A DNA stretch of 64,000 nt from Crambe crambe. Lineage: Eukaryota; Porifera; Demospongiae; Poecilosclerida; Crambeidae. Location: NCBI GenBank assembly GCA_963924555.1, contig OZ004590.1:6130001-6194000 (forward strand), in the 5' to 3' direction. Made by a program: the position numbers and the translations under genes. The notes beneath the pieces were generated by a model, which searched no databases, was not told the DNA's origin, and saw only the letters and a program-made list of their open reading frames with translations. This document shows positions 1,704 to 55,698 of the stretch, in pieces (positions within the stretch are counted from its first letter, which is position 1; every line of letters starts with the position of its first letter).

Positions 1704-4700
1704 ATGGATGTCTATCTTCTGATTTTCATGTTAGCTGTTCCAGGAGTACTTCAGCATTCAGGTATATAACAGCAAGTGGTAAAATCTATGAAGGCTATCT
1801 AATATGATTAAACTTACTCAATTATATCTGTAGTGCTAGTGTCAGCTCAAAGTGCTGTAATCAGCAATGTGCGTCTGAATGGTGGTGGTAACTCAGGAAC
1901 ACTACAGTTTGATAATTCTGTAGGAAGTGGATGGCTGAATTATTGTGAAAGTGATAATATAAATATCATCAAAATTAAATCTGTGGTATGCCGCATGTTG
2001 GGATACGAGTCAGACAGTGGAAGGATCTCACACTCAAGCAAGTGGAGTCATTTAAATTATTAGCCATTATTAATGAAGTATGATGGTGTTTGAAATGAGT
2101 CACTGCATAGCTATAGGTTAGCTATAGGAGGAACCATTATTAATCTATAGCTATTATGTACTAAGTAGCTACTGGTTCAGGATGAATAGTTTATTCGATA
2201 TGACGTTGTTTCAAGCGTAGGAAGCACCCTTTATGATGGAAGTACAAGTTATTTGAGATATACCCTTACCTGCAATGGAGATGAGGCTACTATATCTGAT
2301 TGTAGAGTCAACAATAATTATTATTGGAGATCTTTCTACTGCTATCCAACCGTAATAACTTGTCCTACATGTAAGCTCAAATGATGTGTTTCCTGTAGAA
2401 GAACCTCTAGCTATATAGGTTTTCAGCCACAGGTCACTAACTAGTTCGACCCCTCTGGAGAGGGAAAGTTATAGTGACATATATTTTTGTACGTGTAGTT
2501 AGCATTGAAGTAAAATAGACCATGCATGTAACCTAGTTGCATAATTGAGGCAAAGTAATGGAAGTAAATGTATTAAGTGGAATATAGTAAATGCTAATGG
2601 AAGTATAGTAAATGATAGAAGTATAGTAAATGTTTATAACTAATAGAAGTATATAGTAAATGAATGGAAGTAATATATCAAGTGGAATATAGTAAATGTT
2701 TATTGAGGCTATTTAGAAATTATAAACTTGGAACATTATACCTCAAAGTACTTAAGACTAATTGACTACACACGAAAGCACTTAGCTAAAGTTATAGAAC
2801 AGCTAAAAATACTCTGCTCAATATTTGTTGTGACATCATCCTTATAGGTCCAAGTGGAGCTGTTCGTTTGACTGGTGGGTTGGTTCCACAACAAGGTAAT
2901 GTTGAAGTCTGCCTTAGTGGAACATGGTCAAGAGTGTGTGGTAGAAATTGGGACTACAAGGACTCCTTTGTTGTGTGCAGACAACTGAGATTTCCTGCCA
3001 CTCGAGCAGGTATTGGCTTGTAACTGTTGCACTCTTAATTCTATCACCTCCTACCCTAATTCCTTACAGAACATGCTACCATCACATCCCATGGTCACAT
3101 AGGCTTTGTACCATCCACTAATGCCTACAACTGTATTGGAAATGAGAGTTCTCTACTCAGCTGTAACTATGTGTCTCATCAGTCATGCCAACTTGATAAC
3201 TCGGTTGGTCTTTATCAACAAATCCATCTCTTTTGCAGGGGAAAAATTGCAGGTATATGCTAACTAATGGCAAAGATAAGTGTGACTGTCACGTGACACA
3301 AAGATAATGGGTAAAGGGTGATTATAATGCCAGTTCAATGTCCACCACAGGGCTAATACAAGTGGATTGTAGGTGCTTGGCTTAGTGGTAAGCATCTCAT
3401 AGGTATGCAGCTGCCTGGTTGGAACCACCAATATTTTAGCCTAAGGATTTGAAACACATATTTAATGAGTTGGTACTTGTTCACTGCTTTGCTCACCAAT
3501 TGAATACCTACCCTAGTTATTAAAAACACTCCCTGGCCCTCTAGATCTCAATCAGTGCACGCCTGGGGCAATACGTCTCTCTGGTGGTAGGGATCAGTTT
3601 GAGGGGAGAGTGGAAGTATGCAGTAATGGAGTCTGGGGGACTGTGAGTCGTACAGGATGGGACTCCAATGATGCTACTGTGGCCTGCAGACAACTTGGAT
3701 TGCTTCAAGGAAGTGGAATATTAACAAGTATATAGCTAATACATTATCTGTTTTGCATACTTGATTTTATAATAATAACATAGGAATTACATTGCCCACT
3801 TTTGGACCTGGTGTGGGGCCAATTCTGCTATATAATGTGAGGTGTAATAGAACTGAAGGAAGAATAGTGGACTGTCCATCTAGCAGTAGTTACTATACTG
3901 GCCACTACAATGATGCTGGTGTGAGGTGTCAATTAAATTCTGAATCAGGTAGCTAGCTATGGGTTTGAGCCCATACAGAAGTCAAATTCAGGAACATATT
4001 TTTATTCAGTCCAAACGTGTAAGTCAGGAGAGGTTCGTCTTGTTGGAGGAAACAGTTCCAGTGAAGGGCGAGTAGAGATGTGCTACAAAGGAGTGTGGGG
4101 GTCCATATGTAATAGTAGATGGGACAACATTGATGCTGCTGTGGTATGTAGACAGTTAGGATTTCAAGGAGAAAGTAAGAATGAGTATAAGTCTAATAAA
4201 ATCAATTACTGCTTGGTTGCATGCAGATAGCACAGCAATAAGATCTCTAGAATATGGTGAAGGATCTGGCCCTTACTTATTGAGTAGTGTTAGATGCAGA
4301 GGTCATGAGAGGAATCTAACAGAATGCTCATATAGAAATTCACAAATAGGATATCACACTTGCTCCTCTGGACAGGATGCTGGAGTTCGCTGTGATGGTA
4401 TAGCTGATCATAACTATTATTATTGATTTTCTACTGTATACATAATGTAGCTACCTCATGTAACCATGGTGATGTGAGGTTGTATGGAGGTTACACCAGA
4501 GCAGATGGTGCAGCTGAAGTGTGTATTAATGGACTGTGGGCAAGCATACACTATAATAGTTGGGATGAAACTGACAGCAGTGTTTTCTGTAAACAACTGC
4601 TTGGAAAAGAGAATATTAGTAAGTGCAAGCTAGTTTAGTGTAGTGATATAATATTATGATCCATTTATCTTACACCCTAATAACATGGATTTCTTCAGTT

Positions 4701-54900: not shown

Positions 54901-55698
54901 GTAATATAACTGCTAACGACTTACAAATGTCTTCACTGCAATGCAACAATGCTCAAACTGTTACATTCTCGACTTTGGTGGTGTTCTCCAGTGACAGTGG
55001 TGATGAAACTGCATCCACACTTACCAACAGGTTCTCTTCTCAAGTATCAGCATCTGCTGTATCCCTCAACTTGGATGGAACTGAAGTTCTCGTTACGTCT
55101 GCTTGTAGTGGTGACTGCAGCTCCAATGTTGGTGCTTATGTCGGACTGTTTTTTGGTGGAGCATTGTTTTGTGCAGTTCTTATAGCACTGCTTGTTGTGG
55201 TTGCATACTTAATGTAAGTAAGTCAAAAAGAACTGACTTTATATTCAGTTAGTGAGCATTAATTGAGATACAGTCTAACAGCAGAACTAAGGTCCTAACT
55301 GCAATAAGTATAAGTCACTGTCCCTTTCAAGTTCATGCCTAGGAATAAGCCGTGGTTCATGTACACTTGACTGTATACCCATTATACCTCAATTATGTCA
55401 GCAACTCATTGATATGTATTCAGCATAAACCAATTAGCATGCTATTATGACTAGATATCGGAGGAAGTCATCTAAGAATGCAGACCCACCGAAAGTTGTT
55501 AATGTGACTACTGAGGGAGAAGTCCGTTACTCCAACCGTAGTGGAGAGTTGCAAGTCAAAGAAAAACCTGCCAAAGTGTATAAGAAGAAGCCTAAAGCTC
55601 CTCCTGCTAAGACTAAGCCTGAAGTGGAGCAGAATGAAGAGCTATATGAGCCTTATGAGCTGGATGACCAACAAGAAGTATATGAGTGTGTCGATTGA
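45932..55698 (+). CDS. Receptor gene D: signal peptide, 7 SRCR, 4 Ig-like, TM, tyrosine-rich tail (mosaic of B and C)
   Basis: Predicted single-pass receptor of about 1457 aa. Exons: 45932-45992, 46054-46236, 46681-46821, 47328-47492, 48961-49143, 49526-49711, 49842-50009, 50158-50322, 50379-50549, 50723-50887, 51079-51225, 51319-51486, 51777-52154, 52488-52655, 53227-53508, 53564-53902, 53957-54322, 54382-54648, 54716-54771, 54843-55213, 55455-55698; total 4374 nt. Exons 1-4 and their introns resemble gene C. From the end of SRCR4 to SRCR7, both exons and introns follow gene B (for example [18 protein letters not shown], a three-unit minisatellite). Around Ig3/Ig4 it again shares gene C details (RASIEV, 'ctttatgtag' acceptor). 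SRCR4 has its own residues ([14 protein letters not shown]). The tail ends [18 protein letters not shown]. Cassette D' follows. Confidence 0.85.
47613..47644 (+). repeat. Poly-G tract in gene D intron
   Basis: About 32 G in a row, replacing the poly-C plus ~100 bp found at the same place in gene C. Length is unreliable in such tracts. Confidence 0.7.
47849..48143. repeat. Two-copy tandem repeat in gene D intron
   Basis: Ortholog of 30024-30318: copies at 47849-47990 and 47991-48143. Confidence 0.8.
48154..48279. repeat. Hairpin element in gene D intron
   Basis: Ortholog of 30329-30458, slightly shortened in the right arm. Confidence 0.6.
52737..53186. mobile_element. 450-bp MITE in gene D intron (SRCR7 to Ig1)
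   Basis: Third copy of the element at 17909-18358, in the same intron with the same ends. Confidence 0.8.

Follow-up and report, generated by a model that had tools for sequence, protein, structure and literature searches.

What function is served by a tandem cluster of sponge genes that join SRCR domains, immunoglobulin-like (Ig-like) domains and a short tyrosine-bearing tail? The question is raised by a locus of Crambe crambe on contig OZ004590.1 (C13 in the following), of which we analysed positions 6130001-6194000, a stretch of 64,000 nucleotides called the window here, while the genome searched for further copies comprises 143,139,886 bases in 119 contigs. We established the structure of the genes, the array, the tail classes, the mosaicism and the constraint on frames and tail motifs. 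The locus is interpreted as part of an array of diversifying recognition receptors which probably signal through SH2 docking, and we give this reading a probability of about 0.6. It is plausible that the family serves in recognition and signals through its tail, and the tail classes and their reassortment add to this; the layout suggests, in the sense of being consistent with it, recognition of microbes or of self and non-self.

The repeats were first seen by open reading frames and self-comparison, with block spacings that include 18.3 and 16.5 kb. The contig was then scanned with the exon peptides of the first copy, and the exons were joined by looking for GT/GC-AG introns of compatible phase; the resulting models come from genomic sequence alone. 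The window contains four genes arranged head-to-tail on the forward (+) strand: g1 (1704..9077, 1461 amino acids), g2 (11676..20865, 1441 amino acids), g3 (28000..39176, 1443 amino acids) and g4 (45932..55698, 1445 amino acids). Each is modelled with 21 exons, a summed exon length divisible by three and no internal stop, and each ends in a tail of the type termed class A below. Seventy-nine of the 80 introns are GT-AG and one is GC-AG, and the intron phases are identical across the four genes (18 of phase 1, followed by 0 and then 2). The GC-AG intron lies after the second exon of g1 and aligns with GT donors in g2 to g4; the GC donor is also present in gL1, gL2, gL3 and gR6, which are further copies described below. 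Some splice choices are ambiguous, among them the acceptor of Ig2 in g1 (6944 or 6968).

All four genes share one layout: after a hydrophobic signal exon come seven SRCR and four Ig-like domains, and a single membrane helix leads to a short tail with conserved tyrosines and no kinase. In g1 the signal peptide is encoded by exon 1 (1704..1761), the SRCR domains by exons 2-14 (1834..6438, where the exon at 5519-5899 is shared by the second half of SRCR6 and the first half of SRCR7) and the Ig-like domains by exons 15-18 (6599..8022). A small exon (8080-8135) and the membrane-helix exon (8196-8566) follow, and the tail exon (8825..9077) carries YSN, LYEPYEL and IYECV. Signal peptides were judged by hydrophobicity alone, in g2 by eye. 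In both SRCR regions tested, those of g1 and g3, Pfam recognises seven SRCR stretches, and among solved structures the SRCR part of g1 is closest to CD163 (M130; expectation value (E) 3.4e-122). Several SRCR domains over the Pfam cut-off, the hydrophobic first exon and the single modelled helix together point to multi-SRCR membrane receptors. The assignment to the immunoglobulin superfamily follows from Ig1 of g1, which lies above the Pfam cut-off (28.2 versus 27 bits), and from weak matches of the other three domains in paralogues: Ig4 matches Ig in 10 of 10 paralogues at weak scores (best E 4.6e-5, g1 itself being below the cut-off), Ig2 in five of 11 (best E 0.0035) and Ig3 in six of 11 (best E 0.0091). 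Ig2 and Ig3 are alike (hhalign 90.7%), and the same type of comparison found no likeness of Ig4 to Ig1, Ig2 or Ig3. The predicted structure of the membrane exon contains a single helix, and the confidence of AlphaFold2 is low (mean pLDDT, the predicted local distance difference test, is 43.4 for the Ig3 exon and 44.6 for the membrane exon, which is poor outside the helix).

The first-pass annotation of this DNA had proposed four intact 21-exon genes, each with seven SRCR domains, four Ig-like domains, one helix and a tail with LYEPYEL and YECV. The four genes lie where it had placed them, with open frames and shared phases, and the domain layout and tail motifs are confirmed as well, with Ig2 and Ig3 being weak. 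It had also named SRCR, Ig and SEA as domains to search for, and the first two were found. A SEA domain in the membrane-proximal exon is unsupported, as none of 12 paralogous exons matches Pfam SEA; the structure model is not confident in this region.

That the nearest solved structures of the g1 SRCR part are scavenger receptors bears on what these proteins may bind. As microbe-sensing or scavenging receptors they would attach through their SRCR domains to bacterial or particle surfaces, the tail would drive uptake or immune signalling, and microbes would drive the diversity. Sponges have large tandem SRCR sets, such arrays being common among them (PMC10855680), and a response of sponge SRCR genes to microbial molecules is on record (PMC6208332); however, the responses cited there belong to other SRCR genes and other species. 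We regard this explanation as quite possible, at somewhat less than even odds, and as the likeliest narrower form of the recognition reading.

The array is much larger than the four genes of the first-pass annotation. A genome search with the Ig3 exon yielded 23 copies and one fragment, of which 15 copies and the fragment are on C13, four copies on C10 and one each on C8, C9, C17 and C18, so that eight copies are spread over five other contigs. On C13 the copies share one orientation and extend over ~253 kb, from ~6,106,393 (start of gL3) to 6,359,598 (last tail), and the window cuts this array; no family exon was matched in C13 6,000,001-6,106,000. Three copies (gL1, gL2, gL3) precede the window on its left side; most of gL1 is outside it, but its tail exon falls inside, at 502..811 (+), as matched by exon peptide. 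Further copies lie to the right. Twelve copies were modelled, whereas those at 6.34-6.36 Mb and on other contigs are known as matches, except for eight tail exons. A full set of 21 exons free of stops is found in gR4 and gR6, as in the four window genes; gL1 is complete with a small exon added by eye and gL2 with a tail exon added by eye. Other copies are imperfect: gL3 has a stop in Ig1, the Ig3 exon of gR7 is split by an insertion of ~1.1 kb (the modelled open frame reads across it), gR2 is without a detected first SRCR1 exon, SRCR7 of gR5 is partly missing, and gR1 and gR3 are fragments. A broken copy in the window (~57742..59968, +, matched by exon peptides) comprises only the second half of SRCR2 to the first half of SRCR6, with a frame change at its end. 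Damaged models were kept in the substitution and tree analyses below, and the gR6 model probably truncates the first-half exon of SRCR3.

Two observations concern the same domains elsewhere in the genome. Three weak Ig1 matches at C20:1846165-1857575 (minus strand, E 5.8e-7 to 0.001) perhaps represent a distant related family. SRCR matches number at least 175 genome-wide, with 150 of 2833 candidates scored, and form clusters on C18, C20, C3 and C9.

Within the window g4 is a mosaic. Its SRCR1 is identical to that of g3, and from SRCR5 to Ig1 its coding sequence is that of g2, apart from a single silent change in SRCR7. Over long stretches g2, g3 and g4 share 98-99% identity. Such identity could also be a haplotype difference, in which case part of the array would be an assembly artefact with haplotypes placed in tandem. 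We consider this very improbable. The window sequence contains no N, g1, gR6, gR7 and gL1 differ from g2 to g4 by 16-33% in protein (pairs tried), g4 is a mosaic of both g2 and g3, and the published Crambe crambe assembly was made from 459-fold HiFi reads with manual curation (PMC12166358).

The tails fall into distinct classes. The genome gave 26 tail matches and 23 tails were read, leaving out C13:6347889, the pieces C10:1956514-1956727 and C17:4465664 and the broken g4 tail, and including the tails of gL2 and gL3 although these are absent from the 26 matches. Three motifs serve as reference: YxN is a Grb2-type and YxxM a PI3K-type docking motif, and [SIVL]xYxx[IVL] is the consensus of the immunoreceptor tyrosine-based inhibitory motif (ITIM). 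Class A (11 tails, including the first tails of g1 to g4) has YSN, LYEPYEL and [IVL]YECVD. Class B (nine tails, all outside the window) has YxN in eight, YxxM in eight and [IV]IYECVN, which fits the ITIM consensus, in all nine. The tail of gL1 reads YTN, YEVM and VYEECA, and the short tails of gL2 and gL3 stop before the last motif. YxN is present in 21 of the 23 tails read, and the activation counterpart of the ITIM (ITAM, paired Yxx[LI]) in none of them.

Within class A tails, constraint is stronger on the motifs than elsewhere. Among eight distinct class A tails no residue changes in any of the 15 motif columns, six of which vary silently, whereas in the other 53 ungapped columns 14 show a residue change and three vary silently only (motif versus other columns, Fisher p 0.029; silent versus residue change, p 8e-4). 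Array, mosaicism and tail constraint support the earlier claim of a clustered, recently duplicating and recombining SRCR-Ig family with a conserved tyrosine tail.

Constraint is also visible in the ectodomain. The ratio of nonsynonymous to synonymous substitution rates (dN/dS), pooled over up to 12 copies, is 0.26-0.67 in all 15 parts, which argues that the open frames are kept beyond chance. For the window and its right side (nine copies) it is 0.30-0.76, except for 1.42 in a stalk of 19 codons with few sites. When close pairs are pooled (g2-g3, g1-gR6, gR4-gR5), SRCR1 has a ratio of 0.95, indistinguishable from 1 (p 0.88); the values are 0.22-0.33 for Ig2, Ig4 and the membrane exon and 0.18-0.64 for the remaining parts. 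SRCR1 differs from Ig2, Ig4 and the membrane exon taken together (p 7.6e-5) and weakly from the other SRCR parts (p 0.036). By these ratios SRCR1, the outermost domain of the predicted protein, is the least constrained part and freer to change than the rest.

A value near 1 is also expected under relaxed constraint, and the genes could therefore encode ordinary adhesion receptors, duplicated in tandem and relaxed at the tip, without diversity for recognition. Damaged copies are frequent, as such relaxation would have it, and sponge Ig proteins have been tied to adhesion (PMC11999971). However, the tail motifs are kept while the remaining tail changes, and the tail classes recur on several contigs. 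We find the adhesion explanation rather doubtful.

Further support for recognition comes from the way in which tail classes are reassorted against this least-constrained outermost domain. Trees of five parts from 12 copies conflict with each other. In the SRCR1 tree the class B genes gR2 and gR5 group with the class A genes gR4 and gR7 (support 97/98), and a topology that keeps the two class B genes together is rejected (approximately unbiased test, p 0.0011). Support for the class B pair is 99/99 in Ig1-4 and 100/100 in the stalk and membrane part, and in both parts the SRCR1 grouping is rejected in turn (p 0.035 and p 0.0049, respectively). The SRCR5-7 tree contains this pair as well, weakly supported. 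Class A forms a supported clade in Ig1-4 (98/97); for stalk and membrane this clade is neither found nor rejected (p 0.14).

The outermost SRCR domain groups genes across tail classes, whereas grouping in the Ig and membrane parts follows the class. This recalls the paired receptors of vertebrates (KIR, LILR, SIRP), whose genes lie in clusters, recombine and attach similar tips to different tails; the sponge genes likewise carry a similar SRCR1 on class A and class B tails, in groups picked post hoc, and have the ITIM consensus in one class. They differ from paired receptors in having no ITAM in the 23 tails, no known activating partner and an SRCR-led ectodomain. A bolder idea, which we consider unlikely, is a true paired-receptor locus, where recombination would place one and the same ligand-binding tip on tails with YEPY and YECV, tails with ITIM and YxxM and tyrosine-poor short tails, for individual-specific recognition of self, non-self or symbionts. 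If true, the receptor logic of KIR and LILR and of Botryllus and Hydractinia would be present in a sponge on an unrelated, SRCR-led ectodomain.

The same pattern bears on allorecognition, with tips that would vary from one individual to the next and tail classes that would set fusion or rejection. Tandem mosaic genes with reassorted tails fit this explanation, as do the ITIM and half-ITAM (hemITAM) tails on Botryllus and Hydractinia candidates (PMC12065747). The lack of an ITAM in all 23 tails speaks against it, and so does the dN/dS analysis of the one genome examined, which did not find positive selection. Allorecognition receptors in this strict sense are, in our view, quite unlikely.

For the broader reading of diversifying recognition receptors we propose the following mechanism. 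The genes of the window belong to a sponge tandem array of predicted type I membrane receptors that are presumably located at the cell surface. Their SRCR region, and chiefly SRCR1, may bind variable ligands such as microbial surfaces or tissue ligands, and the tail tyrosines, if phosphorylated, could recruit SH2 proteins. Candidate docking sites are the Grb2-type YSN and the YECV that ends class A and class B tails, to which class B would add YxxM and the ITIM consensus. Unequal crossing-over and gene conversion would multiply the copies and put one SRCR1 type on different tail classes, and similar ligands could then yield different outputs in the manner of paired receptors.

Several results weigh against this reading. 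Class A tails, including those of all window genes, contain no ITIM (0 of 11), no immunoreceptor tyrosine-based switch motif (ITSM), no ITAM and no YxxM. Motifs also arise by chance: of the shuffled g1 tails 65% contain Yxx[ILV] and 20% YxN, and of the shuffled gR5 tails 6% contain the ITIM consensus and 15% YxxM. Because shuffled tails fairly often hold such motifs, our argument rests on constraint and recurrence and not on the match alone. Several copies (gL3, gR2, gR7 and the fragments) are damaged, and in no domain is dN/dS significantly above 1. The class B pair is not rejected in SRCR2-4 (p 0.09), the tree groups were picked after the sequences had been seen, and the trees cover two of the nine class B genes, with gR2 filling 33% of the SRCR1 columns.

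In favour of the docking reading, the genome contains at least 135 SH2 matches, with 150 of 166 candidates scored. A dense run of them at C5:1417826-1522148 (minus strand) is apparently a clustered SH2 gene family, and three weak SH2-like matches at C14:3697948-3702252 (minus strand) are spaced by 2058 bases within one open frame reported to be 9513 amino acids long.

The domain mix alone is not new, since SRCR genes combined with immunoglobulin domains are already in print for the transcriptomes of Aplysina aerophoba and Dysidea avara; the passage that mentions them names the same kinds of domains without an array, exon structure or tail classes (PMC6208332). For a third sponge species more than 600 SRCR transcripts are given (PMC8242945). 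In the open-licence literature we found no description of the SRCR-Ig layout, the tail classes or the array. The first-pass annotation was not aware of a system with exactly this layout, and the tail classes are new in this analysis. CD163 and its relatives are not known to have Ig domains, and the aggregation receptor of Geodia cydonium, likewise a sponge membrane protein with many SRCR domains, has sushi repeats as partner domains and is not known to have Ig. With CD163 and its relatives, and with the SRCR superfamily as expanded in sponges and sea urchins, the array shares several SRCR domains per protein, phase-bounded exons and tandem arrangement in sponges; the published sponge array has two to six SRCR domains per gene versus seven here, and Ig is not among the SRCR partner domains named for sponges in section 2.2 of that paper (PMC10855680).

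The Fester co-receptors of Botryllus and Alr of Hydractinia resemble the sponge receptors as single-pass proteins with Ig domains and tyrosine-motif tails encoded in a gene cluster. The description of those receptors includes polymorphism, a genetic role and sushi next to Ig domains, whereas the present family has an SRCR tip and is known from one genome (PMC12065747). The same review calls the mechanisms of invertebrate allorecognition a mystery and describes sponges, cnidarians and ascidians as having no conserved candidate proteins (PMC12065747). The array supplies named, testable candidates with a conserved signalling-type tail for invertebrate recognition. Should SH2 proteins bind to the tails and the tips prove to differ between individuals, recognition by docking tails would extend to sponges with a different ectodomain.

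g2, g3 and g4 each have a tandem second 3' end ~1.4 kb downstream, which repeats the last part of Ig4, the small and membrane exons and a tail and was detected by self-comparison and exon matches. Those of g2 (21135..22291, +) and g3 (39446..40589, +) are open and alike, with tails 98% identical to the g1 tail, and that of g4 (55966..57049, +) has its tail broken by a frameshift. The flank past the second 3' ends of g2 and g3 resembles that of g1, and unequal crossing-over explains the arrangement on this sequence evidence. An output switch through the second 3' ends was considered and is unsupported, as the second tails of g2 and g3 have the same motifs as the first and that of g4 is broken.

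Some minor features of the window remain to be mentioned. The tRNA search and the Rfam family search of the window found none. The intron of 54 bases between Ig2 and Ig3 is in frame and free of stops in g2 (19075-19128), g3 (37383-37436) and g4 (53903-53956), and its retention would add 18 residues. A repeat of 20 bases occurs in 18.8 copies in an intron of g3 (34573-34948) and in 3.0 copies at the matching sites of g2 (16416-16476) and g4 (51226-51286). Inverted repeats of ~370 bases that are 92% alike lie between the genes (23735-24088, 25949-26319, 42028-42381) and are possibly a mobile element. Right of the broken copy, on the + strand, Pfam matches identify two open frames as ordinary neighbours, an AAR2 N-terminal domain at 61626-62333 (E 1.6e-8) and a ferrochelatase at 63348-63725 (E 5.9e-8).

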